Part shown: piece after piece, positions 12,355-36,043 of the stretch
Position numbering within the stretch: position 1 is the stretch's first letter
Layout: each line of letters begins with the position of its first letter
Virus record (IMG/VR): IMGVR_UViG_3300032050_000398
Coordinates: 1-36,372 of that record
Strand: one strand, 5' to 3'
DNA: 36,372 nucleotides
Source of the DNA: a virus
Made by a program: the position numbers and the translations under genes
Notes under the pieces: generated by a model
Seen by the model: only the letters and a program-made list of their open reading frames with translations
The model's database searches: none
Told to the model about the DNA's origin: nothing

Positions 12355-12957
12355 ATGTCATTTCAAAGTGTTTGGTATGAAACCAAAATGCCAGAAGAAA
12401 TTATTGACATCTTCGAGAAAGAACTAGAATATGTTCCAACAGAAGATGGTCAAGTAGGTCAAGTAGATAATTTTAGAATTTCATATAAAACAAGAAAATC
12501 TAAAATTGGTTGGATTGGAGCAAATTGTTGGTTTTCTGGACTTTTGCATTCATATATTCTGAAAGCAAATAACGAAAACTTTTTCTATGATATTGAGGGT
12601 TTTGAAGGAGACACTATCCAATACAGCATTTATAATAAAGATAGTCATTATACTTGGCACACTGATATGTCCCTTCCAAATTTTTATCACCCCACAAAAA
12701 ATAAAGAAGAAGATTTTATAAAATTAAAGTCAGAACGTATTAGAAAATTGTCAGTTAGTTTACAGCTATCTGGAGAAGATGAATATGAAGGTGGCGAAAT
12801 GCAGTTTTTAGATGACAATAACCAACTTTATACTGCACCAAAATCTAGAGGAACTATAATTATTTTTGATAGCAGAGCTAAACATAGAGTAAGAAAAGTA
12901 AAATCTGGATGCAGAAAATCGATTGTAGGGTGGGTTGTTGGACCTAGATGGAAATAA
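12355..12957 (+). CDS. PKHD-type 2OG-Fe(II) oxygenase (prolyl-hydroxylase-like)
   Basis: 200 aa. The full iron and 2-oxoglutarate signature of the prolyl 4-hydroxylase superfamily is visible: His102-Thr-Asp104 (WHTDM), then KLSVSLQLS and YEGGEMQF, distal His177 in AKHRVRKV, and Arg187 in SGCRKSIVGWVVGP. Such enzymes hydroxylate a protein or small-molecule substrate using O2 and 2-oxoglutarate. The gene sits just upstream of the large glycine-rich fibre, so a fibre protein is a plausible substrate, though this is inference. No strong Shine-Dalgarno is seen. Confidence 0.85.
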   Translation: MSFQSVWYETKMPEEIIDIFEKELEYVPTEDGQVGQVDNFRISYKTRKSKIGWIGANCWFSGLLHSYILKANNENFFYDIEGFEGDTIQYSIYNKDSHYTWHTDMSLPNFYHPTKNKEEDFIKLKSERIRKLSVSLQLSGEDEYEGGEMQFLDDNNQLYTAPKSRGTIIIFDSRAKHRVRKVKSGCRKSIVGWVVGPRWK

Positions 12958-12988: not shown

Positions 12989-14806
12989 ATGCCACTTCCT
13001 AGTTCTGGACAAATAAGCCTACTACAAATTGCCCAAGAATTTCTAGATGGGGCCCCACACCAGATGGACGAGTTCTATAGGGGAGGGGCTAAAGTTCTCC
13101 CTAGTCCTGCAAATAACCCTATTCCAACAAGTGGTACCATTGCATTTTCAAATTTTTATGGAGCAACTCTAAAACTTACTACGGGAGGAACAGAATCTAC
13201 TAGCCCATCTGGAGGATCAACAAGACACACTTTTACAACTACTGGAAATTTTCAAGCTATTGGAACAATTCCAAGTTTAAATTATCTTGTTGTAGCTGGT
13301 GGCGGAGGAGGAGGTTCTGTTTATGGTGGTGGTGGAGGTGCCGGAGGGTTTAGAGAAGGAACCTTTACAAACTTTGCTGCTGGAACTTATACAGCAACTG
13401 TTGGTGGTGGGGGAGGAGATAGAGGTAATGGCAATAATAGCGTTTTTAGTACTATTACTTCTGCAGGCGGTGGAGGTGGTGGTAGAGGATATCAAGGAAG
13501 TCCTTCCACAATTCCGGGAGTAGCAGGAGGATCTGGAGGTGGAGGTGGATTCTCTGCAAACTATATTGGATTTTTTGGAGGAAGTGGGGGAGCAGGAAAT
13601 ACTCCGGCAACTTCACCTTCACAGGGGAATAATGGTGGAAGTGGGGCGCACGGAGGTCCATCCTATCCTGGTGGTGGAGGAGGCGGCGGAGCTAATGGTG
13701 CGGGAAGTAGTAAATACTCCGCGTTTGGATCTGCTGGTCCTGGTGGATTTGGAAGAACAGCTTCAATAAATGGATCAACTTATGCCGGTGGTGGAGGTGG
13801 TGGACAATATAGAAATCCTTCACAACCATTTGCGCCTGCAGGAGTTGGTAGAGATGGTGGTGGTAATGGTGGAGTTGGTGCTGGTGGAGCAAGCGGAACA
13901 GCAAACACTGGAGGAGGTGGTGGTGGAGGATCTGGTAATGGAAATGGTGGGTCTGGTATCGTAATCTTATCTTATGCAAATGCCACAGGAGGAACTGTAA
14001 CAACAGCCAGTGGTTATACGATCCATACATTTACCTCTACAAACACATTTACCGCAAATTCCACAATTACTGCAGAATATTTGGTAATTGGTGGAGGTGC
14101 TGGTGGTGGTATGGGATCTGGGGGTGGAGGAGGAGCTGGAGGTTATAGAACTGGTTCTATAACAATACCTGCCGGATCTTATACAGTAACTGTTGGTGGT
14201 GGAGGTGGTGGTGGAACCTCATATGGAGCGAAAGGTCCTAATGGAAATGCAAGTTCTTTTAGTACAATAACTGCTGCTGGAGGAGGTGGTGGTGGAACTT
14301 CTTATCCTTCTTCGGCATTCCCGGGAAACCCAGGCGGATCTGGTGGAGGAACTAGCGGAGAAGGTGGATCTATCGGTCCTGGAAACTCTCCCGCAACTGC
14401 GCCATCACAAGGAAATAATGGTGGACAAGGAAGACAACTTGGATACTCTGGTGGTGGAGGTGGTGGAGGTGCTGGAGGAGCTGGTGGCAGTAAATACTCT
14501 GCATTTGGATCTGCCGGAACAGGTGGAACTGGAACAACTAGTAGTTTTAATGGAACAAGCACAGTTTATGCCGCTGGCGGTGGAGGAGGACAATATAATG
14601 ACTATACGCAACCATTTGCACCTTCAGGGCCAGGAGGATCTGGTATTGGTGGAAGGGGAGGGACTAGAGCAACTCCAGTTGGAAGTGGTACAGCTAATCG
14701 CGGAGCAGGGGGTGGAGGGTCTGGTAATGGTTGGCAAGGAGGTTCATTCTTCTCTACTGGAGGAGGATCTGGAGGTTCTGGAATAGTAATGATTAGATAT
14801 ACTTAA
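12989..14806 (+). CDS. Large glycine-rich tail fibre with duplicated adhesin module
   Basis: 605 aa. The N-terminal domain (residues 1-60: LPSSGQISLLQIAQEF and IPTSGTIAFSNFYGA) is a common phage-fibre head. Two tandem glycine-rich modules follow. Module 1 covers about residues 60-330 and ends GGSGIVILSYA. Module 2 covers about 332-605, begins SGYTIHTFTSTNTF and ends GGSGIVMIRYT. Each has a short beta region with EYLV(V/I)(A/G)GG, then long Gly runs. Module 2 closely resembles the 330-aa fibre at 9902. It probably forms a polyglycine-sandwich receptor-binding adhesin. Its stop codon overlaps the stop of the convergent minus-strand gene. A late promoter lies 29 nt upstream. Confidence 0.86.
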   Translation: MPLPSSGQISLLQIAQEFLDGAPHQMDEFYRGGAKVLPSPANNPIPTSGTIAFSNFYGATLKLTTGGTESTSPSGGSTRHTFTTTGNFQAIGTIPSLNYLVVAGGGGGGSVYGGGGGAGGFREGTFTNFAAGTYTATVGGGGGDRGNGNNSVFSTITSAGGGGGGRGYQGSPSTIPGVAGGSGGGGGFSANYIGFFGGSGGAGNTPATSPSQGNNGGSGAHGGPSYPGGGGGGGANGAGSSKYSAFGSAGPGGFGRTASINGSTYAGGGGGGQYRNPSQPFAPAGVGRDGGGNGGVGAGGASGTANTGGGGGGGSGNGNGGSGIVILSYANATGGTVTTASGYTIHTFTSTNTFTANSTITAEYLVIGGGAGGGMGSGGGGGAGGYRTGSITIPAGSYTVTVGGGGGGGTSYGAKGPNGNASSFSTITAAGGGGGGTSYPSSAFPGNPGGSGGGTSGEGGSIGPGNSPATAPSQGNNGGQGRQLGYSGGGGGGGAGGAGGSKYSAFGSAGTGGTGTTSSFNGTSTVYAAGGGGGQYNDYTQPFAPSGPGGSGIGGRGGTRATPVGSGTANRGAGGGGSGNGWQGGSFFSTGGGSGGSGIVMIRYT

Positions 14807-15378
14807 TCACAGTTTAATAAATTAAAACAATCAATATCTTTATCATAAGCATATTCTTTATATTTTCCATTTTTTCTAACATAATGGAGAAATAATTGAA
14901 TATGATTTTCGTTTTTACTGCAGTTTAAAGGTGATCTCCAATGTGGAAGATCTATGCCCTTATATAAAAGAGCAGAACCCGTGTCAATATAAAATTTTTG
15001 TTTCTTTCCACTAGAATCTAAGATTTGAAGTGGCCATTTTGTAGGACTATCTATTGTAACCGAAAGAGATATCTCACAAGAAGGTCTATCAATATGATAT
15101 TTTAAATATGATTTATTTGGATATGCTGTCATGAACCAATAAGTGGGAACTATTTCTTCTCCAAGCAATTCTTCAATAACTACTTTTGCTTTTTTTACGG
15201 CAAAAACTGCATACTTTGGAGAGTAAAACATGATAACGTTTCCTCTTGTTTTATCATATTCCGGTTGATACAAATTTATATTATTTTTATATGCACCTTT
15301 TTTAATTGATGCAATTTCGGATCTAGTAAATATGTCCTTTACGTATAACAATCCATTCTTTTCAAATTCTCTATTCAT
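14803..15378 (-). CDS. 2OG-Fe(II) oxygenase-like protein
   Basis: 191 aa from the ATG at 15378; a GTG at 15417 would add 13 residues with no better ribosome binding site. The metal site is readable: His95-Ile-Asp97 in YHIDRPSCEISLSV, then GSALLYKGIDLPHWR with His146, and a closing NHIQLFLHYV. This matches phage oxygenases in which the distal His lies in a 'PHWR' segment. It is the only minus-strand gene in the window. It converges on the glycine-rich fibre so tightly that the two stop codons share the bases TTAA. It is a paralogue of the degenerate protein at 11315. The substrate is unknown; fibre hydroxylation is a possibility suggested only by location. Confidence 0.8.
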   Translation of the reverse strand: MNREFEKNGLLYVKDIFTRSEIASIKKGAYKNNINLYQPEYDKTRGNVIMFYSPKYAVFAVKKAKVVIEELLGEEIVPTYWFMTAYPNKSYLKYHIDRPSCEISLSVTIDSPTKWPLQILDSSGKKQKFYIDTGSALLYKGIDLPHWRSPLNCSKNENHIQLFLHYVRKNGKYKEYAYDKDIDCFNLLNCD

Positions 15379-15398
15379 TTTATTTTGGGTGAAGTGGA

Positions 15399-15451
15399 CA
15401 CTTTTTAAACTGACCACTTCTTGACAAAAATTGTTTATTGTGGTCTAAAAT
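15399..15451 (+). promoter_or_regulatory. Dyad-type promoter module, copy 1
   Basis: Dyad CACTT-N4-AACTG at 15399-15412, continuing ACCAC. There is a TTGACA at 15421-15426 and a -10 that reads TCTAAA at 15444 (17-nt spacer) or TAAAAT at 15446 (38 nt from AACTG). GACCAC at 15412-15417 and GTGGTC at 15440-15445 form an inverted repeat across the -35. A second inverted repeat, GAAGTGG/CCACTTC, spans 15391-15420. It would drive the metallopeptidase gene and lies in the gap upstream of the divergent oxygenase. Confidence 0.62.
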
Positions 15452-16026: not shown

Positions 16027-17355
16027 ATGAAGACTCTTTGGGTACTCGGAGAAGAACAGATCTCCTCAGACATTCCTAATCTTATTCATTGGGTATGTAA
16101 TAGTAACGTTGAATTTGATCAGATTAAGTACGATCTAACAACTATTGACGGTAAAATCTTCTTCAAGATTTCAGGTATTCGCAGTTCTCAGTATTCTGAA
16201 TTTTATTATGGATTGGTTTCTCGTTCTGGCAATGGTTTTGTAGATTTTCTTGTATATGAACGTTCAGAACCTCCCACAGAAAATAGTATTCCCATTGCAG
16301 TAGCAGAAGCAACAAAGTGTAATGGAAAAGAATCTGGAAATATGAATTCTCAAAGAGCGTCTAAGAAGATTGCTATTATTGAGAAGTGGGGAAATATTCC
16401 TTTTGCATATTTGATTGCAAATTCTCTCCCTATTGAAGAAACTCAGAAGTCTTTTGGTCACTCACATAATTGTGATTTTGCTACTATGAGTTACTTTGGT
16501 GCTGATATTTTGATCTCTAAGATCGGAGAACTTGGATATCAGAAATATGAGAATCCAATTGAGTTTTCTTCAGTTGTAGATGTTTGCGCTCAAGAGGGAC
16601 TTAAGAAATCTAAGTCTGGATTTATTCCTTCTAGGGTTTTCTGTGGTGATAATGTGATTCAGATTCAGGCAAATCTCTTCAAAAACAAAGGTAACAACGA
16701 TCCTGGTGAGGGATATATTGCAAGTCGTGCTTATCTTTGTCGTCTACTGAGTACAGACGAAGAAATTCAGATTATCAACCATAACCGCCCTCGTGAATAT
16801 TTTGAGCGTAAAAACAACAAACTAGTTAACGTTCTTAAGATTGTTGGAGTTACTATTGTTTTTCCCGATGGGAATAACCTTGTAATTGAAAAGCAACCTG
16901 GAATCTATGATAAAGATTACTGGCAGTATTCAAATCGTGGGGAGAAGATTGCTTCGATTGTGATGGAGAATTACTACGTTAATCTGGGATGGGAAGTTCT
17001 CTTTACAAATCATGCTGGGTGTGGAAAATCCTATGTAAGTGCCAATGGTGAGTATTACAAGACCAAGAAATCTAAAGGTCTTCCTGATCTTGTTCTCTAC
17101 AACAAGTCACAAAATCTTCTTTATGTGATTGAGGCAGAGCAATCTAAAAACTACAAGAAAGGTATCAAACAAGTCAAAGACGTTGAGTTCTCTAAGTTTA
17201 TCGACCGAGAGATTCTTCCTCACCTCCCTTCTGGAGTTAAATCGGAAAAGTATCTTTGCACTTATGGAAAATACAATAATGAACCTGAAGTTATCTTTAA
17301 TTTGACAGAAGACTTCCAAATCAATTATAATGTAAATGCAGAGGTAATCAAATGA
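16027..17355 (+). CDS. Putative type II restriction endonuclease
   Basis: 442 aa from the ATG at 16027; a TTG at 16006 is in frame but has no ribosome site. The call rests mainly on context: its stop overlaps (ATGA) the first of two adenine methyltransferase genes, giving a classic R-M operon. Two regions look like PD-(D/E)XK catalytic cores. One is Asp73 in FVDFLVYE followed by VAEATK (Glu94, Lys97). The other is Pro353-Asp354 in GLPDLVLYN followed by VIEAEQSK (Glu369, Glu371, Lys374). The second gives the better pattern (PD-x14-ExE, as in enzymes with a BamHI-like ExE). I do not recognise the specific family or its recognition site. It would cut DNA lacking the methylation made by its two partners. 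Confidence 0.68.
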   Translation: MKTLWVLGEEQISSDIPNLIHWVCNSNVEFDQIKYDLTTIDGKIFFKISGIRSSQYSEFYYGLVSRSGNGFVDFLVYERSEPPTENSIPIAVAEATKCNGKESGNMNSQRASKKIAIIEKWGNIPFAYLIANSLPIEETQKSFGHSHNCDFATMSYFGADILISKIGELGYQKYENPIEFSSVVDVCAQEGLKKSKSGFIPSRVFCGDNVIQIQANLFKNKGNNDPGEGYIASRAYLCRLLSTDEEIQIINHNRPREYFERKNNKLVNVLKIVGVTIVFPDGNNLVIEKQPGIYDKDYWQYSNRGEKIASIVMENYYVNLGWEVLFTNHAGCGKSYVSANGEYYKTKKSKGLPDLVLYNKSQNLLYVIEAEQSKNYKKGIKQVKDVEFSKFIDREILPHLPSGVKSEKYLCTYGKYNNEPEVIFNLTEDFQINYNVNAEVIK

Positions 17356-18332
17356 GATATATTGGCAATAAAACTAAACTTTTAGATTTTATTCACAGTG
17401 AAGTTCAGAGTGTCTGTGGTGATATTTCTGGTATGCAATTTTGTGATTTGTTTGCTGGATCTGGATCTGTGTCCAAATACTTTAAACAGTACGTACAGCA
17501 AGTGTCTTCTAATGACCTTGAGCAGTATAGCTATGTTCTCTGTTCTAATTACATTGGTAATCTATCAACAATCGATTGTTCAGATTTCATTCGATATTTG
17601 AATAATATTCCCAGCGTTGAGGGTAAATTTTATAAAAACTTTTCTCCTGCAGGAAATCGTAATTTCTTTACAGAACATAATGCTAAAAGAATTGACGCAA
17701 TTCGACAAGAAATTCAAAGGTTATTGAATGAAAATCAGATTAATTTAGATCAATACTATTTTCTTCTTGCTTCTTTGATCGAGACTGTTGACTCGTATGC
17801 TAATACGACAGGAGTTTATGGTGCTTTTTTGAAACAATTTAATGGAAGGTCTGCTAAAAATCTAGTCTTAGTTCCTGCTCAACCAGCACCAGGAAATCGT
17901 GGTATCGCTTATCGAAATGACGCGAATAAGTTGATTGAGACAATTAGTGGAGACATTCTTTATCTCGATCCTCCATATAATACACGTCAGTATGGAGCAA
18001 ATTATCATATTCTTAATTATTTGGTTGACTATGATAATTTTCAATTTAAAGAGGATTCTAAAACTGGACTTGGTGATTATAATAAATCAGATTATTCCTC
18101 AAAGAGATCTGTTTTGGAATCTTTTGACCAACTGATTCGCGATTCTAACTTTAAATATATTTTCGTTTCTTATAACAATGAAGGTATCTTAACCATGGAG
18201 CAAATGGAGAATATTATGTCAAAATATGGACAATACCAACTGAAAACCAAAGAACATAAACGATATAAGTCCAATACAAATAATCCACAACAAGCAAAAG
18301 TCTTAGAGTACCTTCACGTTCTTATCAAATGA
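17352..18332 (+). CDS. DNA adenine-N6 methyltransferase, D12 class
   Basis: 326 aa. The order of motifs is that of alpha-class adenine methyltransferases. Motif X is MRYIGNKTKLLDFI at the N-terminus, motif I (AdoMet binding) is DLFAGSGSV at residues 32-40, and catalytic motif IV is DPPY at 206-209 in ILYLDPPYNTRQYGANYH. It transfers a methyl group from AdoMet to adenine N6. It overlaps the nuclease gene by four bases upstream and the second methyltransferase by four bases downstream, so the three are probably translationally coupled. It is a different branch from its neighbour; two methyltransferases often serve the two strands of an asymmetric site. Confidence 0.9.
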   Translation: MRYIGNKTKLLDFIHSEVQSVCGDISGMQFCDLFAGSGSVSKYFKQYVQQVSSNDLEQYSYVLCSNYIGNLSTIDCSDFIRYLNNIPSVEGKFYKNFSPAGNRNFFTEHNAKRIDAIRQEIQRLLNENQINLDQYYFLLASLIETVDSYANTTGVYGAFLKQFNGRSAKNLVLVPAQPAPGNRGIAYRNDANKLIETISGDILYLDPPYNTRQYGANYHILNYLVDYDNFQFKEDSKTGLGDYNKSDYSSKRSVLESFDQLIRDSNFKYIFVSYNNEGILTMEQMENIMSKYGQYQLKTKEHKRYKSNTNNPQQAKVLEYLHVLIK

Positions 18333-19264
18333 CATTTACTAATTTTGTTACCGAGTTTCCAATTGTTAAAAATCCAAAAACAAAATCACAAGTAAATGTT
18401 GCTTCTCCATTTATCCAGTGGGTTGGTGGAAAGCGATCTCTCTTGGACAAGTATGATCCACTAATTCCAGTAGAATTTAATAATTATTATGAACCATTTT
18501 TGGGTGGTGGAGCTATGTTCTATCACCTATATTCCAAGTACGGTAATACTAAAAAATATTACCTTTCTGATTTTAATTCTGAGTTGATTACGGTCTACAA
18601 TAGCATTGTATCTTCCCATGAAGAGGTTGTTGAATTGCTTTCACAAATGAATACGCGGCACAGTAAAGAGTTTTACTATTCAGTTCGTAACTACGATCGA
18701 GAAGAAATTTCACCAAAACGGTATAGAAAAAAATTTAATGTACAAGAAGAATTAAATCATGTTGAACTTGCTGCAAGGTTTATATACTTAAATCTAACTT
18801 GTTTCAATGCGCTTTATCGGGTAAATTCTGAAAACTTGTTTAATGTTCCTATTGGAACTTCTCTTAAAAAGGACATTTCTGATAATGGATTGCTAAAATC
18901 TTGCTCGGAAGTTCTTGAGTCTGCAGATATTAAATTTCAATCATATGAAATGATTAATCCTGTTGAGGGTGATTTTGTATTTTTTGATCCACCATACGCA
19001 CCTCTTTCTTCAACTTCAGATTTTACGTCATATACTTCTGAGGGATTTTCATTGAATGATCAAATGAAATTGAAAGAGTTTTGCGATACTTTGAAAAGTA
19101 AAAATGTGCAGTTTATGCTATCAAATTCAAATTGCGAATTTATTAGGGAACTTTATAAAGATTATGAACAACATACATTTTCTTTGAATAGAACTCTCAA
19201 TTCCAAAAAAGAATTAAGGAAGCAAACAACAGACAATGAAATTCTAATTGTCAATAAAAACTAG
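18329..19264 (+). CDS. Dam-family DNA adenine-N6 methyltransferase
   Basis: 311 aa. Motif X is PFIQWVGGKRSLL (residues 27-39), motif I is YYEPFLGGGAMF (53-64), and motif IV is DPPY (220-223) in FVFFDPPYAPLSSTSDFTSY. This is the Dam/DpnIIA type arrangement, also seen in T4 Dam. It is the third gene of the restriction-modification operon, overlapping the previous gene by ATGA. It may methylate the second strand of the nuclease site or a separate motif; sequence alone cannot say which. Confidence 0.9.
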   Translation: MTFTNFVTEFPIVKNPKTKSQVNVASPFIQWVGGKRSLLDKYDPLIPVEFNNYYEPFLGGGAMFYHLYSKYGNTKKYYLSDFNSELITVYNSIVSSHEEVVELLSQMNTRHSKEFYYSVRNYDREEISPKRYRKKFNVQEELNHVELAARFIYLNLTCFNALYRVNSENLFNVPIGTSLKKDISDNGLLKSCSEVLESADIKFQSYEMINPVEGDFVFFDPPYAPLSSTSDFTSYTSEGFSLNDQMKLKEFCDTLKSKNVQFMLSNSNCEFIRELYKDYEQHTFSLNRTLNSKKELRKQTTDNEILIVNKN

Positions 19265-19342: not shown

Positions 19343-19537
19343 TTGAAAACTGAATTTATTTGTGTTGAACCCAAGAGTCCTAATGCAAAAATTAGGTTTG
19401 AAACTATGATGGATTCGCTCCATTCTTGTAAAGTTGAACAAAGAAAAGACGGGAAAGTTTTTCTTTCTTCTATTACGGGACGTTATTTCTTCTGCATTCC
19501 AGAATCTGGAGACGATCATTGGAAAATCGTTAAGTAA
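19343..19537 (+). CDS. Small conserved phage protein, 64 aa (TTG start)
   Basis: The start is TTG at 19343, decided by a GGAGG Shine-Dalgarno at 19333-19337 only five bases upstream. Visible blocks are VEPKSPNAKIRF, KVEQRKDGKVFLSS, then GRYFFCIPESGDDHWKIVK. A paralogue with VRPKSKKAKNR, CIVEQDTGGELFLAS and KYFFW...HWEVIE lies at 34959-35174. Unknown function; compact beta-rich fold likely. First gene after promoter copy 2. Confidence 0.78.
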   Translation: MKTEFICVEPKSPNAKIRFETMMDSLHSCKVEQRKDGKVFLSSITGRYFFCIPESGDDHWKIVK

Positions 19538-19547
19538 ATTAATAATC

Positions 19548-20111
19548 ATGAAATATAAAAAATTACTCAAAAATTATCCCATACTTCTAATAAAAAATTT
19601 TGAAGTAGTTGATGATAGTAAAAGAGAATCTCTAGTCAATATTGTTTATACAAATAGTAAAAAAACCTCTATTGATCTTACTGGATATAGTTTTCCATTG
19701 TTTCACGATCCCACTTGTTTTTTTGCAAATCTTTTAAAAAAGTTTAGAGAAACGTGTGTGGAATTGTTTGGTGATCTTAAATATCTACCAACAAACAATG
19801 ATTTTTGTTGGGCATATTGTAGCAATAGTGGTGATTATGCTGAAATTTGGCATGATCATATGAAGACATCTACTATTAATTCTGTTTATTATCTAAATGT
19901 TCCGAATTGTTCTGGTGGAGAAATCGAGTTTGATCTAGGAAAAAATAAGACGTTTAAATATAAACCAAGCAATTTTGATCTATTAATTTTTCCAAACTAT
20001 CTGAGACATAGACCTCTAATGGTAAACAGCAAAGAACTTAGAGTTTCAATTAATATGGAATTCTTGTGCGAAGAGCAACCATTTTATATCTTTGATTTTA
20101 AAGAAAGATGA
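19548..20111 (+). CDS. 2OG-Fe(II) oxygenase, phage HxH type
   Basis: 187 aa from the ATG at 19548; upstream in-frame sequence belongs to a neighbour's other frame. It follows the family pattern of phage 2OG-Fe(II) oxygenases (PF13759-like). Residues His102-Asp-His104 lie in EIWHDHMKTS, then SVYYLNVPNCSGGEIEF, a PSNFDLLIFPNYLRHRP segment with distal His154, and Arg165 in LRVSINMEF. The HxH in place of HxD is typical of this subfamily as I recall it. Its stop overlaps the next oxygenase start (ATGA). The substrate is unknown. Confidence 0.8.
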   Translation: MKYKKLLKNYPILLIKNFEVVDDSKRESLVNIVYTNSKKTSIDLTGYSFPLFHDPTCFFANLLKKFRETCVELFGDLKYLPTNNDFCWAYCSNSGDYAEIWHDHMKTSTINSVYYLNVPNCSGGEIEFDLGKNKTFKYKPSNFDLLIFPNYLRHRPLMVNSKELRVSINMEFLCEEQPFYIFDFKER

Positions 20112-20608
20112 AATTTGAAATCTATGATAATTTCTTAGATTATCAACAATTCTTTCTTTTAAAATCTAGCATTTTGAATGCAAATTTTCCCTGGTATCTA
20201 AATGACGGTATAATCACACCTACCGAAACAAAGTTTGCAGATGAAAGTGAGAGATATCAATTTACACATACTTTTTTTGCAGAAAACAACGTAAAAAGTT
20301 CCTGGTATCAATTTTTAAGTCCAGTACTAGATAAAATACCCCATAAAAATCTTATAAGAATCAAGGCAAATCTTTTGCCAAGAACTGATTTTGCAGAACT
20401 TCAACCATTTCACTGTGATAATTCCTTTGATCATAATGTTTCTATTTTTTATATAAATTCTAATAATGGATTTACTGTTTTTGAAAATGGAGATAAGGTG
20501 GAAAGTGTTGAGAATCGATTACTAACGTTTTCTGGAAATTGCTTGCACTCTGGAACTACTTGTTCAGATAAAAATGCTAGGATTCTTATTAATTTTAATT
20601 ACGTTTAG
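20108..20608 (+). CDS. 2OG-Fe(II) oxygenase, compact phage type
   Basis: 166 aa. His102-Cys-Asp104 in PFHCDNSFDHN, then SIFYINSNNGFTVFENG, distal His147 in GNCLHSGTT, and Arg158 in NARILINFNYV make a complete HxD...H...R site on a short double-stranded beta-helix core. ATGA overlap with the preceding oxygenase suggests co-translation and perhaps a joint task. Confidence 0.8.
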   Translation: MKFEIYDNFLDYQQFFLLKSSILNANFPWYLNDGIITPTETKFADESERYQFTHTFFAENNVKSSWYQFLSPVLDKIPHKNLIRIKANLLPRTDFAELQPFHCDNSFDHNVSIFYINSNNGFTVFENGDKVESVENRLLTFSGNCLHSGTTCSDKNARILINFNYV

Positions 20609-20617
20609 AAATAAGAT

Positions 20618-21163
20618 ATGAATTTTAGATTTGTTGGCAATTTTGAAGTAGACAAAATAAAAGAAAAAATTATTGAAAACGGCCAAGATCCTTGGAGAGA
20701 GAATAGTGTGCGTCAAAAAATTTACGACGTACATAAAGATACTCAAACAATACCTTTATTATGGGATCTAAAATCTTTACAGCACAATACTATTGGTGAA
20801 AAAACTGAGTATTATGATCTATATGACGTTGAAAGTTATTTCTACGACATAAAAAAAGTTTTAGAGCAGTTTTATGGTGAAGGTAGAATTGTAAGAATTA
20901 TTCTCACAAAACTTAAAAAAAGAAAAAAGATTTATCCGCACACTGACGACACAATATCACTTTCACTTTGCAATAGAATTCATATACCAATTATAACAAA
21001 TGAAAATGTTGTATTTTTGGTAGGTGGTGAATCTAAAGTTATGTTGGAAGGTGAAATGTGGGAGATTAACAATCTCAAAGAACATTCCGTTTCAAACGAC
21101 GGAAAATCTGATAGAGTTCATTTAATTATAGATTATTATGCATCAAAAAAATTCCGAGACTGA
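20618..21163 (+). CDS. Aspartyl/asparaginyl beta-hydroxylase-like oxygenase
   Basis: 181 aa. The pattern fits the AspH family: His108 in YPHTDDTISL, Arg120 in CNRIHIPIITNENV, a GEMWEINNLKEHSVSN block with His156, and Arg166 in DRVHLIIDYY. Family members hydroxylate Asp or Asn side chains in proteins, using Fe(II) and 2-oxoglutarate. It is the third oxygenase in a row here and comes from a different subfamily than the two before it. It lies nine bases after the previous stop and overlaps the next gene by 26 nt. Confidence 0.83.
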   Translation: MNFRFVGNFEVDKIKEKIIENGQDPWRENSVRQKIYDVHKDTQTIPLLWDLKSLQHNTIGEKTEYYDLYDVESYFYDIKKVLEQFYGEGRIVRIILTKLKKRKKIYPHTDDTISLSLCNRIHIPIITNENVVFLVGGESKVMLEGEMWEINNLKEHSVSNDGKSDRVHLIIDYYASKKFRD

Positions 21164-30393: not shown

Positions 30394-30568
30394 TTTGGTT
30401 TACGATCAACGTAAATATGGTTGGGTTGTTGATAAACGCTATGATTGGATCAATATGCTCATGACAATGCAGAAGAAAAATCCACAACGTTTCAAAGAGT
30501 TTGAATATACAAATGCCACGATTTATCATTACATAGATAGAGTACAAATGGAGCAGACCCATGAGTGA
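30380..30568 (+). CDS. Small phage protein, 62 aa
   Basis: Begins MTIFDLVYDQRKYGWVVDKR, then YDWINMLMTMQKKNPQRFKE and a YHYIDRVQMEQ end. Overlaps both neighbours (14 nt and 8 nt). Function unknown. Confidence 0.7.
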   Translation: MTIFDLVYDQRKYGWVVDKRYDWINMLMTMQKKNPQRFKEFEYTNATIYHYIDRVQMEQTHE

Positions 30569-31034
30569 AGTAACCTTTAAGAAGCATAGAGTATTCCGTG
30601 AAACAGAAGCAGTTGTATTCTATGATATCTCGGTTGAGTATTCAAACGCTCAGGACCTTGTGGTTCATTCTGGTCCTGCTATCAGTCCTCCTGATGATAT
30701 TGTAGGTGCAAAACAGTTTTATATTCACTATCATCAGGTAGATCATAATCGCGTTCTGTCTGGTATCAGAACATTTGAACTGGTGAATCCAGAGTGGCGA
30801 TATCCTTACCATATCGTTCACCTTAATCGTTCTTCTGGTGCATTAGTCATTCCTAAAATGACCTATCACCGTTCTTATTCTGGAGAAGAAGGTTCTATTG
30901 TCATTAATCAAGCAATTCGTGACGATGAGTTTAATCCTGAAACTGAGTTTGTTCCCGTATCAGCAGCCAAAGACAGCAATCTTTATCATATCCTCGCTCA
31001 CGAAAAACCAGTTATTCATACACTTGGAGAATAA
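30561..31034 (+). CDS. Conserved phage protein, 157 aa
   Basis: Beta-rich sequence with TEAVVFYDISVEYSNAQDLV, a KQFYIHYHQVDHNRVLSG block, HIVHLNRSSGALVIPKMTYH and RSYSGEEGSIVINQAIRD. The conserved His residues and VIP..TYHRSYSG segment suggest a cupin-like barrel, but I cannot confirm it. Precedes 31037 by two bases. Confidence 0.74.
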   Translation: MSEVTFKKHRVFRETEAVVFYDISVEYSNAQDLVVHSGPAISPPDDIVGAKQFYIHYHQVDHNRVLSGIRTFELVNPEWRYPYHIVHLNRSSGALVIPKMTYHRSYSGEEGSIVINQAIRDDEFNPETEFVPVSAAKDSNLYHILAHEKPVIHTLGE

Positions 31035-31036
31035 CC

Positions 31037-31432
31037 ATGGGGATGTTTGATTATTTTCGTTCTTCCTATGATTTGGGCGAAAAATTTACAAATGTTTTAT
31101 GTCAAACCAAAGATATAGAAGAAGGTATTGGCGGAACCTTGACTGACTATTGGTTAGATCCTAATGGTGTGTTATGGTATCCAGATTATAGGGGTACAAA
31201 TACATATGAGATTATTGAAGAAGACGATCCTCGATATGATCCGAAGAAATTGTTTTTGAACTTTGAATGGGTGCCGACTGGCAATCGTGGATCATATAAA
31301 CCCCATTTGATTACAAAGTATGTTGAGGTTTATCCTGCAACTTGGGAAGGACACTGGGAAGATTGGCCCCGTTGCAGATTGCACTTCAAGTATGGTAGAC
31401 TTGTTGATTATGAGGATTTCACTGGGCGATGA
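31037..31432 (+). CDS. Conserved phage protein, 131 aa
   Basis: Starts MGMFDYFRSSYDLGEKFTNV, an opening shared by many phage proteins of unknown function. It continues with FTNVLCQTKDIEEGIGGTLT, TDYWLDPNGVLWYPDY and VEVYPATWEGHWEDWPRCRL. GGAGA lies upstream. ATGA overlap downstream. Function unknown. Confidence 0.78.
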   Translation: MGMFDYFRSSYDLGEKFTNVLCQTKDIEEGIGGTLTDYWLDPNGVLWYPDYRGTNTYEIIEEDDPRYDPKKLFLNFEWVPTGNRGSYKPHLITKYVEVYPATWEGHWEDWPRCRLHFKYGRLVDYEDFTGR

Positions 31433-31611
31433 ATTCAACAGAGAAGGCAAAAATATATAAAAACGTTTGGTGTTGTGCATATCAAAGACGTTACATGTAT
31501 CGCGGCACCCCACGCGAATATAGAGAGCATGAAACTATTTTAATGTGTCTTAATATGAAAGGCGCAAAGTGGTATCAATTTGACACAGAAAAACCCCATT
31601 ATTTGAAATGA
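31429..31611 (+). CDS. Small basic protein, 60 aa
   Basis: ATGA-coupled on both sides. Contains KIYKNVWCCAYQRRYMYRGT and PREYREHETILMCLNMKGAK. Basic and Cys-containing but without a zinc pattern. Function unknown. Confidence 0.68.
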   Translation: MNSTEKAKIYKNVWCCAYQRRYMYRGTPREYREHETILMCLNMKGAKWYQFDTEKPHYLK

Positions 31612-31931
31612 TAGAAACGTCATTATTTCCTTACGAAAATCACCCATATCGGTTGGAATTCGGAGAAAAGAAAAACACTACAGTTTGTTATTTCTCATGT
31701 GAAGATCACTTGCAAAAATACTTGACCAGGTATAAACTTAATAAGAAAAATGTAAAAATTGATTGCTATCATGAACAATCCATTCAACCCAGTAAAAAGA
31801 ACAAGAGAAGTGTGGAGCAAAAGTCTGAACCAAAAAGTAACGGAAGTTCAAGTTCAGTTCGCAGAAGAAAATCCAGCATGGATTCCACTGGAAACTCTAA
31901 TCGCGCTCCAAAACCTAAAAAAAGAAAATAA
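31608..31931 (+). CDS. Phage protein with basic low-complexity tail, 107 aa
   Basis: The first 60 residues look like a folded domain (MIETSLFPYENHPYRLEFGE, TVCYFSCEDHLQKYLTRYKL). The remainder is a Lys/Ser/Arg/Pro tail (KKNKRSVEQ, SSSSVRRRKSS, APKPKKRK) that could bind nucleic acid. The tail region also encodes a second protein in another frame (31771-31935), so part of its odd composition may reflect the overlap. ATGA-coupled upstream. Confidence 0.7.
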   Translation: MIETSLFPYENHPYRLEFGEKKNTTVCYFSCEDHLQKYLTRYKLNKKNVKIDCYHEQSIQPSKKNKRSVEQKSEPKSNGSSSSVRRRKSSMDSTGNSNRAPKPKKRK

Positions 31932-31935
31932 ATAA
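31771..31935 (+). CDS. Overlapping small protein, 54 aa
   Basis: ATG ORF in a different frame from the 107-aa gene that it overlaps over 161 nt. It begins MNNPFNPVKRTREVWSKSLN and continues TEVQVQFAEENPAWIPLETL, then LIALQNLKKENK. It has normal amphipathic protein character, unlike the low-complexity tail in the other frame. No clear Shine-Dalgarno is seen. Its stop overlaps the late promoter. Confidence 0.55.
   Translation: MNNPFNPVKRTREVWSKSLNQKVTEVQVQFAEENPAWIPLETLIALQNLKKENK
31927..31934 (+). promoter_or_regulatory. Phage late promoter (NATAAATA) for the lectin cluster
   Basis: ATAAATA at 31928-31934, preceded by A, 17 nt before the ATG at 31952. It gives the three lectin-like genes a late start within an otherwise non-late region. 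Confidence 0.62.
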
Positions 31936-31951
31936 AAAAAATATAAAATAC

Positions 31952-32602
31952 ATGGCAATTGCATATAATCCAACAATAGTTACAACAGGATTAGTTTTAT
32001 GTCTTGATGCTGGTAATACAAACTCATACTCTGGTTCTGGTACCAGTTGGAATGATTTAAGTGGTAATCAATATGTTGCTACTATGAGGAATTTGACATC
32101 TTCAAACTGGGTTTTGATCAATGGACAACGTGCATTTGAAACAAATGACACAAACAATCAAGGATTTACTGTATCTAATTTTGTTAGACCTGGATCTCAA
32201 AGAACATATAGTATTTGGTTAAGGTCAAAGTCATTCTCCATTGGGTGGCAAACATGGTTTGATGACGGTGCAGAAAGAATTTTATTTGGTACCAGTACAA
32301 ATACCGTTCACATTTATCCTGATGTCAATCTAACTGCAAATTTACAAACAGATACTTGGTATAATTTATCTTATACTTTATCGGGAACAACTGCTATTGG
32401 ATATGTAAATGGTGTTTCTGTGGGAAGTGGTACTTATTCGTCAGCACTGACAAGTGGAACTGGAGATCTATGGATACTTGGCGATACTGGAAGTGAAATT
32501 ACAAGTTGCTATTGTTCTTATGCTTCTGTTTATAGCAGAGCACTCACAGCAACAGAAATTTCACAAAACTTCAATGCTCTCAGAGGAAGGTTTGGAATCT
32601 AA
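31952..32602 (+). CDS. LamG/ConA-lectin-like tail protein, copy 1
   Basis: 216 aa. Opening TIVTTGLVLCLDAGNTNSYS and GTSWNDLSGN, a beta-sandwich with RTYSIWLRSKSF, TWYNLSYTLSGTTAIGYVNG and LWILGDTGSE, and the ending QNFNALRGRFGI. This is the pattern of laminin-G/concanavalin-like jelly rolls that phages use to bind surface glycans. First of three tandem paralogues behind a late promoter; likely a fibre-tip or capsid-decorating receptor-binding protein. Confidence 0.83.
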   Translation: MAIAYNPTIVTTGLVLCLDAGNTNSYSGSGTSWNDLSGNQYVATMRNLTSSNWVLINGQRAFETNDTNNQGFTVSNFVRPGSQRTYSIWLRSKSFSIGWQTWFDDGAERILFGTSTNTVHIYPDVNLTANLQTDTWYNLSYTLSGTTAIGYVNGVSVGSGTYSSALTSGTGDLWILGDTGSEITSCYCSYASVYSRALTATEISQNFNALRGRFGI

Positions 32603-32627
32603 ATATTTTAAAACTAAGGAAGTGTAA

Positions 32628-33233
32628 ATGGCTGTTTATGCTGGACCAGAAATAGTAGATAATGGTCTTGTATTGTATCTTGACGCTGCAAATCAAAAAT
32701 CTTATCCTGGATCTGGTACCACTTGGAATGATTTGAGTGGTAGAGAAAATCATCATACATTAACTGGAAGTCCAATATATGGTTCCGGTAGATTTACTTT
32801 AGACGGTTCGACACAAGGATTCACCAAAGCGAGTGCAATAAATGGAGTATCTTCAACAAATACTGTAGTAATATGGTACTCTACATCCGATGGAGCTGAA
32901 TTGTGGGTAAGGGGAAATCAAAGTAATGGAGTTTATTTAAGTGCCTCCTCTGGCAATAACTACTATCATAGTAATGTAGGTTCTCCTACGAATTGGGTTG
33001 ATTTAAATTCAGTAACAAATCCTGTTACTGAAGGGTATAGAAATGGCGCATTTCATATGTGGGAAGCAAAAAGTGTAGACTTTTCTTCTTGGTCATATTA
33101 TGAATGGTTTTTATATCCTGCTCCTTGGCAAATGGCAGGAAATGTTAGTTGTATAATGGTATATGACAGAAATTTAACTGCAAATGAAAGTAGACAAAAC
33201 TTTAATGCCATTCGTGGACGCTTTGGAATCTAA
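32628..33233 (+). CDS. LamG/ConA-lectin-like tail protein, copy 2
   Basis: 201 aa paralogue: VDNGLVLYLDAANQKSYPGS, GTTWNDLSGRENHH and the ending SRQNFNAIRGRFGI. The middle differs strongly from copies 1 and 3 (TNTVVIWYSTSDGAELWVRG, SSWSYYEWFLYPAPWQMAG), as expected for a receptor-facing core between conserved ends. AAGGAAGTG serves as Shine-Dalgarno. Confidence 0.82.
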   Translation: MAVYAGPEIVDNGLVLYLDAANQKSYPGSGTTWNDLSGRENHHTLTGSPIYGSGRFTLDGSTQGFTKASAINGVSSTNTVVIWYSTSDGAELWVRGNQSNGVYLSASSGNNYYHSNVGSPTNWVDLNSVTNPVTEGYRNGAFHMWEAKSVDFSSWSYYEWFLYPAPWQMAGNVSCIMVYDRNLTANESRQNFNAIRGRFGI

Positions 33234-33245
33234 GGAGAAACAAAA

Positions 33246-33968
33246 ATGGGATTATCACACTCGCCAAGCATAGCAACCAATGGATTAGTTTTGTATCTTG
33301 ACGCTGCAAATGAAAAATCTTATCCTGGATCTGGAACTAATTGGCAAAATTTAGTTGGGTCTGAAGTTTTTACTATTAATGCTTCTGCTTATAATAGCAG
33401 CGGTCCAAAATATATGGACTTCAAGGGAAGTTTTGGGTGTGCCAAAAAAACTGATTCTGATTTTATTATTTCTGGAGATGTAACTTGTATTTGTTGGACT
33501 AGAATTTTAAATTCTACTTCAAACTGGAGAACTCTTCTTCGTGGTCTTAGCTCTGGACAAGACCACCAAGTAATTGTTCAAAGTGGTACTTGGCAAATCG
33601 GTATGTATGATAATACCAATGGAACAGGATTTAATGATTCTGGATTTAGTCAACAAAATCTTCCTGGTTATGCTTCAAATCAATGGAATATGTTAACTTG
33701 GAGGTGGAAGAATGCAGCAACTCCATATTATAACTTAAGTTATAATGATTCTCCAGAAACAATAAGAGGTTCAAATAATAGTTCAAATGCTAGATTTAAG
33801 CACGGATTTTGTTCTATTGGTGCTTATAATAATGGTGTTCAAAGTGACCCAAATAATGCCTCTCAATTTTGGGGTGATATATCACAAATATCCATTTATA
33901 ATAGATATTTGACTGACGCGGAGATTTCACAAAACTTCAATGCTCTCAGAGGAAGGTTTGGAATCTAA
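33246..33968 (+). CDS. LamG/ConA-lectin-like tail protein, copy 3
   Basis: 240 aa paralogue: TNGLVLYLDAANEKSYPGSG, the lectin core GDVTCICWTRILNSTSNWRT, QWNMLTWRWKNAATPYYNLS, and the ending AEISQNFNALRGRFGI. Its last 45 nt (33924-33968) are identical to those of copy 1 (32558-32602). AAGGAG precedes the ATG. Promoter copy 7 follows directly. Confidence 0.82.
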   Translation: MGLSHSPSIATNGLVLYLDAANEKSYPGSGTNWQNLVGSEVFTINASAYNSSGPKYMDFKGSFGCAKKTDSDFIISGDVTCICWTRILNSTSNWRTLLRGLSSGQDHQVIVQSGTWQIGMYDNTNGTGFNDSGFSQQNLPGYASNQWNMLTWRWKNAATPYYNLSYNDSPETIRGSNNSSNARFKHGFCSIGAYNNGVQSDPNNASQFWGDISQISIYNRYLTDAEISQNFNALRGRFGI

Positions 33969-33973
33969 TATGA

Positions 33974-34027
33974 CACCCAGAGAACTGGCACACTCCTTCT
34001 TGCATTCGTGTGGTTTTGCCTTATAAT
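33974..34027 (+). promoter_or_regulatory. Dyad-type promoter module with hairpin, copy 7
   Basis: CACCC-N4-AACTG (33974-33987) continuing GCACA, and TATAAT at 34022-34027, exactly 39 nt from AACTG. CACAC/GTGTG (33989-33993/34008-34012) forms a hairpin followed by GTTTTGCC. TTGCAT at 34000-34005 could be a -35 (16-nt spacer). It ends the late lectin cluster and starts the next small-gene operon. Confidence 0.72.
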
Positions 34028-34050
34028 ATAAAGGTAATCAAGAGATCCAA

Positions 34051-34245
34051 ATGATTTTCCACTATACTGCTGGTCAGGGAAAGCAAGGTACCCTCACTCT
34101 TGTTCCTTCTATGTCTCTTATCAACCCTCAGTATGTTTGTGTTGCTGAGGTTGAGGGAAAATCAATGGTTGTGAGCAACCCTCGCCCTCTCAATGAAGCA
34201 CTTAATTGGGCTCGTAATTACTGTGGTTCTTTCTGCCTCCTCTGA
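34051..34245 (+). CDS. Small protein, 64 aa
   Basis: Begins MIFHYTAGQGKQGTLTLVPS and has QYVCVAEVEGKSMVVSNPRP and a LNEALNWARNYCGSF helix. First gene behind promoter copy 7. Function unknown. Confidence 0.72.
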   Translation: MIFHYTAGQGKQGTLTLVPSMSLINPQYVCVAEVEGKSMVVSNPRPLNEALNWARNYCGSFCLL

Positions 34246-34247
34246 TA

Positions 34248-34433
34248 ATGAAACCTAAATTTCGACCCATATTAGAAATGGCATTAGAACAAGGTGTTAG
34301 GTATGGATATAATCGTGCATTTAGGCATGATCCAGCACCACATGTAGATGCTATTGTTGAACATATTGTTGAACAAGTAATTAACTCTCTTGACGATTGG
34401 TTTGATTTTGAGGAGAACAATGAACCTAATTAA
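34248..34433 (+). CDS. Small phage protein, 61 aa
   Basis: Begins MKPKFRPILEMALEQGVRYG, continues YNRAFRHDPAPHVDAIVEHI and ends with an acidic DDWFDFEENNEPN. Helical. Overlaps the next gene by 14 nt. Function unknown. Confidence 0.73.
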   Translation: MKPKFRPILEMALEQGVRYGYNRAFRHDPAPHVDAIVEHIVEQVINSLDDWFDFEENNEPN

Positions 34434-34710
34434 TTTTAAACATAGATACGATTACGGTCACGATTGGTATGTTCAAATTCTAACCATCAAGCGTTGGAGT
34501 TTGCTTCAAATATCTGTGAGTTGGAATGATTATGCATCGTGGCCTTATCTGCAAATTAGGTCTGGAAGTGGTGATTTGGTAAGTATTATTTTCTGGGTTT
34601 ATAAGTTTGGGTTTGATATTGATTTTTGTGGGAGAACTTGGAAATGGGATTACTTAGAAAAATGTGATGAGGAATCTGATAAAGATTTCTTGAAAGCGGA
34701 TGAATGCTGA
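34420..34710 (+). CDS. Phage protein, 96 aa
   Basis: The start is set at 34420 by GAGGAG a few bases upstream (inside the previous gene). Begins MNLINFKHRYDYGHDWYVQI and has LLQISVSWNDYASWPYLQIR and FGFDIDFCGRTWKWDYLEKC. Beta-rich and aromatic. Function unknown. Confidence 0.72.
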   Translation: MNLINFKHRYDYGHDWYVQILTIKRWSLLQISVSWNDYASWPYLQIRSGSGDLVSIIFWVYKFGFDIDFCGRTWKWDYLEKCDEESDKDFLKADEC

Positions 34711-34741
34711 AGCAATTACCTACTAAAAAGCACCGAACATT

Positions 34742-35014
34742 ATGAACCTCAAAGAGAAGAAAGCACTACTCAAGAAACTTGAGACTGCATACAACACTTG
34801 TTTTGATTGTGGACAAAAGTATGGAGTTTATTCCGTAGGTTGCTCCTCTGTTTATGAGTCAAAGTGTGGTGTATGCGGTGAGATCAAACGTATCACCGAA
34901 ACCCGTGATTTTGCTTATTTTGTAACTGGTATTCGCAAACTGAAACTGGAGATTGCAAATGAGAAGAGTAAGCGTAAGACCCAAAAGCAAGAAGGCGAAG
35001 AATCGTCTTGCTAA
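34742..35014 (+). CDS. Small zinc-ribbon protein, 90 aa
   Basis: CFDCGQKYG and CGVCGEIKR form two CxxC knuckles about 20 residues apart; an extra Cys lies in VGCSSVYESK. Helices flank them (MNLKEKKALLKKLETAYNTC and TGIRKLKLEIANEKSKRKTQ), with a basic C-terminus. A nucleic-acid or protein adaptor is plausible. Overlaps the next gene by 56 nt. Confidence 0.75.
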   Translation: MNLKEKKALLKKLETAYNTCFDCGQKYGVYSVGCSSVYESKCGVCGEIKRITETRDFAYFVTGIRKLKLEIANEKSKRKTQKQEGEESSC

Positions 35015-35174
35015 CACAATGGAAGGAAATCCTGTTTGTATTGTGGAGCAGGATACTGGCGGTGAGTTATTTCTCGCTTCTGAGAATCGTAAATACTTCT
35101 TCTGGGTTAGCACTCGCACTGGCACAAATCGTTTTGGTGACAAATCTGATTCACACTGGGAGGTGATTGAATGA
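34959..35174 (+). CDS. Small conserved phage protein, 71 aa, paralogue of the gene at 19343
   Basis: The ATG at 34959 is favoured by GGAG at 34948-34951; an in-frame TTG lies six bases earlier. Blocks: RRVSVRPKSKKAKNRLANTM, CIVEQDTGGELFLASENRKY, FFWVSTRTG and SDSHWEVIE. The same block order occurs in the 64-aa protein at 19343. Function unknown. ATGA-coupled to the next gene. Confidence 0.77.
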   Translation: MRRVSVRPKSKKAKNRLANTMEGNPVCIVEQDTGGELFLASENRKYFFWVSTRTGTNRFGDKSDSHWEVIE

Positions 35175-35365
35175 CTTACGACCAACTCTATGAGCACATT
35201 GTCAACTACATTGCTCAACCACTGGATGACAAACGCAAAGCATGTCTGATTCTTGGTGCTGTTATGGAGTTTCACCTTGATTGCCTTGATGAAGGTGTAG
35301 ATCCTCGCACTATTGATATGACTGGTTTTGTGAATGAGAAACTTGATGAACTGGAGGGTAAATGA
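35171..35365 (+). CDS. Small acidic phage protein, 64 aa
   Basis: ATGA overlaps on both sides. Begins MTYDQLYEHIVNYIAQPLDD and has KACLILGAVMEFHLDCLDEG and a MTGFVNEKLDELEGK end. Helical. Function unknown. Confidence 0.72.
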   Translation: MTYDQLYEHIVNYIAQPLDDKRKACLILGAVMEFHLDCLDEGVDPRTIDMTGFVNEKLDELEGK

Positions 35366-35616
35366 GATTTCGTGATATTGAGTTCCGTTGGAGCAACTGC
35401 AATAACAAGTATGAACTCGTCAAGTGGCATCAAAACCCAAATGGTAAAAAGTGTTATGTGATTGCTTTCTTTGATAAAGGCAAAGAGGGATATGATATGA
35501 GAACTATTGGTGACAGGTTCTTTGAGGATAAAGATGCCTGGGTTGTGGGTAAGTATGGTCTGGAGTTTCTAAATGAAGTCTTTGAGATTGAAAGGATTGA
35601 AGAGGAACTGAAATAG
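35362..35616 (+). CDS. Phage protein, 84 aa
   Basis: Begins MRFRDIEFRWSNCNNKYELV and has KKCYVIAFFDKGKEGYDMRT and RFFEDKDAWVVGKYGLEFLN. Mixed alpha/beta with a charged helical end. ATGA-coupled upstream; promoter copy 8 begins two bases after the stop. Function unknown. Confidence 0.73.
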   Translation: MRFRDIEFRWSNCNNKYELVKWHQNPNGKKCYVIAFFDKGKEGYDMRTIGDRFFEDKDAWVVGKYGLEFLNEVFEIERIEEELK

Positions 35617-35617
35617 A

Positions 35618-35671
35618 CACTTGAAGAACTGGCACAGGGCATCTCCACAGGTGCCCTTTTTGGTCTATAAT
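35618..35671 (+). promoter_or_regulatory. Dyad-type promoter module with terminator, copy 8
   Basis: CACTT-N4-AACTG (35618-35631) continuing GCACA, and TATAAT at 35666-35671, exactly 39 nt from AACTG. A terminator hairpin lies between them. It drives the 116-aa gene at 35693, 22 nt downstream of the -10. Confidence 0.74.
35637..35661 (+). terminator. Terminator hairpin inside promoter module copy 8
   Basis: Eight-base-pair stem GGGCATCT/AGGTGCCC (35637-35644/35649-35656), loop CCAC, followed by TTTTT (35657-35661). It closes the operon 34051-35616 just before the next -10. Confidence 0.8.
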
Positions 35672-35692
35672 GACTTCATAAGAAACAAACCA

Positions 35693-36043
35693 ATGACTGA
35701 CCTTTCCAACTTTACTTACAAGCAAATACAGGAACTTGAAAGGCAAATTGAAGAACAGAAAAGGTTGATTCAAGAACGCAAGGAGTTTTTGAGTCAAACA
35801 AAAGACTGTGCGATTGGATATAAGGTGACTTTTTGTGTGAAGTTCAATCCTTATACTCACGAACACGATGAACTGTGTAGTAAGGAGGAATTTGGTGATT
35901 GGTTGGCAAATGATAATGCGAAACAAATTATTGAATACTTTGAACTTAAAACTCCTGTTGAAGATGTAAGTGGTTTTGAGATTACAGAAATGACTGATGA
36001 CGACAAGGAAGAATGGAAGTGTTTTTGGGAAAATGAAGAATGA
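35693..36043 (+). CDS. Phage protein with N-terminal coiled coil, 116 aa
   Basis: The start at 35693 lies downstream of the promoter -10; in-frame sequence further upstream would read through the promoter. Begins MTDLSNFTYKQIQELERQIE, forming a coiled coil to about residue 34, then IGYKVTFCVKFNPYTHEHDE and EFGDWLANDNAKQIIEYFEL. Acidic C-terminus. ATGA overlap with the next gene. Function unknown. Confidence 0.75.
   Translation: MTDLSNFTYKQIQELERQIEEQKRLIQERKEFLSQTKDCAIGYKVTFCVKFNPYTHEHDELCSKEEFGDWLANDNAKQIIEYFELKTPVEDVSGFEITEMTDDDKEEWKCFWENEE

Follow-up and report, generated by a model that had tools for sequence, protein, structure and literature searches.

A putative late mini-array of three LamG-fold adhesin genes in a T4-like cyanophage, with cores probably swapped by recombination at conserved gene ends

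The window, meaning the whole stretch of DNA analyzed here, is a 36.4-kb virus record. A blastn search with window positions 30500-36000 matched 38 records, all of them named Synechococcus, Prochlorococcus, or "Cyanophage." This part of the window contains three tandem genes, referred to as copies 1 to 3, with the following features:

31928..31934, plus strand: late-promoter-like ATAAATA, 24 nt before copy 1
31952..32602, plus strand: copy 1, 216 aa, stand-alone LamG/ConA-like protein
31970..32066, plus strand: 5' end block of copy 1, GLVLxLDAxN...DLSG, conserved in the family
32529..32602, plus strand: 3' end block of copy 1, encoding QNFNALRGRFGI; last 45 nt identical to those of copy 3
32599..32605, plus strand: CTAAATA, the sole one in the window; overlaps the copy 1 stop codon and precedes copy 2
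32628..33233, plus strand: copy 2, 201 aa
32646..32742, plus strand: 5' end block of copy 2, nearest to that of copy 3 (74 nt, 85%)
33160..33233, plus strand: 3' end block of copy 2, C-terminus QNFNAIRGRFGI
33246..33968, plus strand: copy 3, 240 aa, LamG/ConA-like
33264..33360, plus strand: 5' end block of copy 3, nearest to that of copy 2
33895..33968, plus strand: 3' end block of copy 3, C-terminus QNFNALRGRFGI; last 45 nt identical to those of copy 1

A preliminary description of the locus had reported three tandem plus-strand open reading frames (ORFs) with a common start block and a QNFNA(L/I)RGRFGI end, and these are present. The start motifs are TGLVLCLDAGN in copy 1 and NGLVLYLDAAN in copies 2 and 3, and the C-termini are QNFNALRGRFGI, QNFNAIRGRFGI, and QNFNALRGRFGI, respectively. 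Although the start motif occurs in all three ORFs, they do not start with it as had been stated, as it begins at residue 12 instead of residue 1. The identical 45-nt 3' end of copies 1 and 3 is found at 32558-32602 and 33924-33968, with 47 of 48 positions identical when 48 nt are counted. The ends are conserved as claimed, but the repeated blocks are larger: a 5' block of 97 nt, in which copies 2 and 3 are 70-73% identical to copy 1, and a 3' block of 74 nt with 70-82% identity. Degenerate DNA patterns for the two ends give three exact matches each in the window and none in 100 shuffles. The array recurs with >99.8% identity in three more contigs (L005, L006, and L007) and is therefore no accident of one assembly.

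Copy 1 matches the Pfam family PF13385 (Laminin_G_3) with 55.5 bits at a curated cut-off of 27.6; copy 3 stays under this cut-off with 23.4 bits, and copy 2, which is 38% identical to copy 1, shows no Pfam match up to an E value of 0.1. AlphaFold2 models of copies 1 and 3, for which environmental relatives were used, are confident for copy 1 (pLDDT 89.2, pTM 0.88) and fair for copy 3 (pLDDT 78.5, pTM 0.82). Both models show a β-sandwich with one C-terminal helix made by the conserved tail, and the conserved ends hold the first and last strands of the modeled fold together with this helix. The best solved neighbor of copy 1 is domain 4 of the arabinanase AbnA (5hon, arabinotriose bound; VIA Z 20.8), followed, among the matches listed, by trans-sialidases and the Pan3 tailspike. 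ConA-like solved domains score Z 18-21 among the matches listed for copy 1 and reach a Foldseek E value of 1e-9 for copy 3. The clostridial toxin domains among the structure matches of copy 1 indicate a common fold and nothing more. The best named predicted viral matches are phage ConA-like proteins, including those of S-PM2 and S-SKS1. Models and fold matches support copies 1 and 3 as predicted concanavalin-A-like jelly rolls; the lectin-like fold that had been proposed from the letters is thereby borne out for these two copies, and for copy 1 by Pfam as well.

The array lies 17.1 kb from the fiber ORFs, the last of which ends at 14806, in agreement with the earlier figure of about 17 kb. The neighboring gene at 30561-31034 is called "hemagglutinin" or "redox protein" in many cyanophages, which is a doubtful name. 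The fiber genes at 1117-6954 and 6994-9315 end in an S74 intramolecular chaperone domain, each behind ATAAATA. Inside the fiber block, the ORFs at 10913-11290 and 11945-12313 are paralogous by eye and start with MAHFAELD. Inspection by eye further points to 2OG-Fe(II) oxygenase-like ORFs at 12355-12957, 14803-15417, 19434-20111, 20108-20608, and 20618-21163 and to two adjacent DNA methyltransferase-like ORFs with DPPY motifs at 17352-18332 and 18329-19264. Positions 1-70 hold a tRNA cut by the start of the record according to Rfam, and ARAGORN finds none.

ATAAATA occurs seven times in the window, always on the plus strand, compared to 16.6 occurrences expected by shuffling. The motifs at 1080, 6951, 12954, and 31928 lie 24-43 nt before the ORFs at 1117, 6994, 12989, and 31952, the first three of which are fiber or structural ORFs. 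Those at 9312 and 23836 precede other ATG codons (~40 nt on for 9312), and the one at 9663 is located within an ORF. The late motif of the array reads AATAAATA in context, with its core at 31928, so that the array carries just upstream the TATAAATA/NATAAATA motif by which T4-type late genes are recognized. The S-PM2 late promoter is given as NATAAATA in PMC2984593. Together with the motif at 31928, this published promoter indicates that the array is most likely transcribed from a late promoter of its own, and the private late promoter of the preliminary description is backed, at the level of sequence, by the motif and its position. The CTAAATA at 32599 is a possible weak promoter. Such a late motif is no rule of the family, being found within 80 nt of just 12 of 142 family ORFs.

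At least 119 viral-contig stretches contain the C-terminal DNA pattern, and a narrower tail pattern with fixed Arg codons has no match in the contigs of 84,980 species genomes of bacteria and archaea; both searches count exact pattern matches only, and the two patterns differ. In view of the zero cellular matches of the narrower pattern, the QNFNA-type tail looks virus restricted. A total of 160 nonidentical ORFs with the tail were extracted, identical genes being counted once. Two or more tail-bearing ORFs are present at 42 of 107 loci, with a maximum of seven at one locus. An alignment of 93 members gives the start consensus PxIVTxGLVLxLDAxNxKSYPGSGTTWxDLSG and the end consensus YNRxLxAxEIxQNFNALRGRFGI. 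The mean information in alignment A3 (86 members, with 7 rows of A1 left out; A4 is A2 minus 2 rows) is 2.7-3.0 bits for residues 1-40, 0.8-1.5 bits for residues 61-180, and 3.6 bits for the last 16 residues. All three copies of the array share the two features that define the family, the GLVLxLDAxN start block and a QNFNALRGRFG-like C-terminus (QNFNALRGRFGI tail). The constant ends from which a cassette had been deduced are real, but they are not private to the cluster: a whole phage family has them, and a family trait is alone no proof of a cassette.

Several homologues sit among structural genes. S-PM2p176 and Syn1_217 are annotated as "virion structural protein" and are located between T4-GC 865 and 863, and S-SKS1 contains two multidomain homologues flanked by a baseplate wedge gene and a tail-fiber gene. 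Flavobacterium phage immuto carries two stand-alone tandem copies, annotated as "structural protein," behind a tail-fiber-like gene. In contig L012, the gene immediately after a 1595-aa S74 tail-fiber gene is a 57% homologue of copy 1; in L009, two ORFs of >1650 aa, for which Pfam gives no telling match, enclose an 82% homologue. The category of PHROG 8510 is "head and packaging" and not tail. The marker gp23, present in 1 of 8 records, is of little use for typing the relatives.

The array of the window itself is situated among small genes. In the loci around relatives of the gene at 31037-31432, many of which are shortened by contig ends, an ORF with LamG ends is within reach in 4 of 80 cases, all of them this virus. 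Based on the small-gene setting and on the few neighbor-gene loci that carry it, the array looks like an arrival outside the fiber block. Contig L016 represents a second case of three stand-alone copies distant from recognized fiber genes. At L016 4345-8093, three tandem stand-alone LamG genes are followed by HNH and GIY-YIG homing-endonuclease-like genes, which could help move that array.

Within the window, copy 3 is a mosaic by synonymous codons, with a copy 1-like 3' end and a copy 2-like 5' block. It shares with copy 1 all 14 of 14 synonymous codons at the 3' end (probability of ~5e-6 under the codon usage of the window) and 8 of 17 in the 5' block, compared to 7 of 11 and 15 of 22, respectively, with copy 2. 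In the cores, synonymous sharing is near the expected level for all three copy pairs. The virus's own population yielded no clean recombinant; its sole variant array is that of L034 (3300008108_001089, positions 3939-5755). The third gene of L034 begins as copy 3, changes over to copy 2 within the 5' block that the two have in common, and continues at window position 33503, out of frame; the copy 2 of L034 has lost 115 nt, also out of frame. This frame-broken array was rejected as a natural recombinant and is not among the swap rows described below; it is probably an assembly error, since the near-identical L006 and L007 show deletions at other, nonrepeated places. In copy 3 of L007 (3300008262_001745), a C-to-T change at gene position 619 makes a stop, which reflects either a sequencing error or the loss of copy 3 in the population.

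For the relatives, genes from different loci were compared in contig pairs with an abutting flank of ≥80% identity over ≥150 nt. This comparison gave 53 rows, and in 22 of them the gene is not near-identical. Thirteen of the 22 rows have the same gene throughout, one is partial, and eight are alignable in parts only, with <35% of the gene alignable, mainly at the ends. Since L016 and L155 are one contig, the eight swap rows correspond to seven distinct pairs. Their abutting flanks are 85-98% identical, compared to 22-44% amino acid identity of the cores, and two of the seven contain a short matching stretch inside the gene as well. In L042/L047, identity is 96-100% up to about nt 150 and then drops to 44% (25-nt steps); abrupt breaks are likewise seen at about nt 92 in L118/L120 and about nt 125 in L068/L089. 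Toward the other gene end, L016/L102 breaks ~104 nt and L066/L148 ~40 nt before the stop. A clean 3' break ~75 nt before the stop is found in L053/L158, which stands outside the 22-row count because one gene is a fragment of <500 nt. The break points are located in or just beside the two conserved end blocks. Close abutting homology on both flanks is restricted to L016/L102, and the other swap pairs show it on one side. The clearest swap pairs come from metagenome contigs; chimeric assembly would tend to produce breaks at these very sites, which speaks against exchange.

Among isolates, S-RIM44 Np_42_0711 and Sn_08_0709 have different cores at T4-GC 865/863, and homology resumes 66 nt before the stop; with a flank of only 74% identity, an old swap is hard to separate from fast core evolution. 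Syn19 and S-BM1 were considered as a further isolate swap, with homology resuming precisely where the Syn19 gene ends, and were not counted because neither product has the QNFNA tail.

Tandem paralogues provide a further line of evidence. Their synonymous sharing exceeds the between-contig baseline by 0.092 at the 3' end (P = 0.0026) and by 0.003 in the core (P = 0.81), with P = 0.007 for the 3' end versus the core (41 contigs, 77 tandem pairs). This test was designed after a per-contig comparison of 3' end and core excess over the codon-usage expectation had given 25 of 41 contigs (P = 0.14); the between-contig baseline was adopted because different-contig pairs showed the core expectation to be biased. 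With core identity restricted to <0.25, 5 contigs are left, with P = 0.31. Taken as sequence comparisons, these results support core replacement in relatives, with the conserved ends on either side kept. The exchange of variable cores suggested in the preliminary description thus finds support in the relatives, through seven contig pairs and the 3'-end synonymous sharing, but it is not clean in this virus. An absence of recombination among copies in relatives, which the same description had named as evidence against its proposal, was looked for and did not occur.

The reading that we consider probable is that of a late mini-array of three LamG-fold lectin adhesins of a T4-like cyanophage whose cores are swapped by recombination at the ends. 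The three stand-alone LamG-fold proteins would most likely be virion surface or tail-associated adhesins binding host glycans. The 5' block (~97 nt) and the 3' block (~74 nt) would act as short homology arms, most likely for the ordinary homologous recombination of a T4-like phage, among paralogues of the same genome or between co-infecting phages. Such recombination would swap the variable core and keep the parts needed for folding or attachment, and its outcome would be a limited repertoire of binding specificities expressed from a single late promoter. The fold and the gene context suggest that the benefit may lie in binding different glycans or receptors. A diversity-generating retroelement was rejected as the mechanism, as reverse transcriptase (RVT_1) is absent from all five records searched, the window and four relatives, each possibly a fragment. 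A serine/tyrosine recombinase inversion or integration cassette was rejected as well: Resolvase and Phage_integrase are absent from the same five possibly fragmentary records, and inverted repeats at the array are 71-83% complementary at most, none of them strong. A wider and more tentative proposal, which we hold possible but would not bet on, regards the tandem lectin genes as an in-genome library, with the end blocks as universal homology arms for aquatic phages. Receptor-binding cores would then be traded among tandem copies, multidomain fiber proteins, and co-infecting phages without a reverse transcriptase or an invertase. In the present virus, the library would have left the fiber block and acquired a late promoter of its own.

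The conserved ends could also be explained without any exchange, if the LamG fold alone conserved them and the cores had diverged quickly in place. The placement of the ends at the first and last strands and the C-terminal helix of the fold fits this explanation, as do their conservation by the whole family and the 13 of 22 rows with the same core. Divergence in place is nevertheless improbable, given that the in-gene breaks lead from ~90-100% identity to background within ~25-50 nt beside abutting flanks of 93-98% identity and that synonymous sites of the 3' end are common within contigs and not between contigs.

The role of the proteins leaves room for two further explanations. Virion decoration lectins on the capsid or tail would bind abundant glycans of sheath, mucilage, or particles and make encounters more frequent, but would not determine receptor specificity. 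The small stand-alone proteins lack a recognizable attachment domain, PHROG 8510 is labeled head and packaging, and the array lies outside the fiber block, all of which agrees with decoration; we still regard it as rather unlikely, because homologues are found in or beside tail-fiber and baseplate genes and, for Pan3, the protein with this fold has been deposited as a tailspike. Least probable, and by our judgment very unlikely, is a nonvirion role inside or near the infected cell, such as that of late-made lectins that block superinfecting phages. The location among small nonstructural genes and the 76 of 80 neighbor-gene loci without the cluster would suit such a role, but the late motif is the same as that of the fiber set and homologues are annotated as structural.

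T-even gp37/gp38 adhesins consist of constant segments and variable receptor-binding segments that are exchanged by homologous recombination. The array family resembles them in its constant parts and exchanged variable parts; in contrast to the tandem complete small proteins of the array, the T-even adhesin is an unrelated protein present once per fiber. The targets of diversity-generating retroelements (Mtd-like, with a C-type lectin fold) likewise combine variable lectin-like tips with a constant frame, whereas members of the array family differ in whole cores and not at scattered sites.

The closest comparison is with the LamG virion proteins of cyanomyoviruses, namely, S-PM2p176 (T4-GC 864), Syn1_217 (T4-GC 1089), and S-SKS1 SWZG_00007/00008. 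Like copy 1 of the array, the S-PM2 and S-SKS1 homologues, which are those scanned, contain Laminin_G_3 domains, in their case C-terminal, and related C-terminal motifs are present in S-PM2 (QNFNALRTRFGL) and Syn1 (QNFNATRSKYGV). As in the array family, the cyanomyovirus cores differ between phages at the T4-GC 865/863 locus. Unlike the array, whose three proteins have one domain each and are encoded in a separate region of small genes, the cyanomyovirus proteins are multidomain proteins of 470-1358 aa in the structural region. The tailspike of the cyanopodophage Pan3 (PDB 9vyh, 9vyh_p), a phage of another type than the array's virus, matches the fold of copy 1 along its entire length (Z 19.0, 207 residues, 12% identity). 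It is absent from the 60 family-profile sequence matches listed and from the four phmmer matches of copy 3. To our knowledge, no array is known for the Pan3 tailspike.

Phage tail fibers and virions with ConA or Laminin G3 domains have already been described (PMC7824862, PMC7029224). The open-access literature searched yielded no account of a LamG family whose single-domain copies stand in tandem and have had their cores replaced repeatedly at two constant end blocks. Modular phage adhesins are known, and repeated core replacement at two fixed end blocks is unreported for this family in that literature. Several T4 tail-fiber genes are without a recognized counterpart in cyanomyoviruses, according to a review (PMC2984593). 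Host recognition by phages of picocyanobacteria and other aquatic bacteria is mostly unknown, and the lectin family, being widespread and seemingly restricted to viruses, supplies concrete candidates. The sharp and repeatable exchange points make host-range evolution testable from long-read viromes, and they suggest a natural route by which such viruses may change what they stick to.
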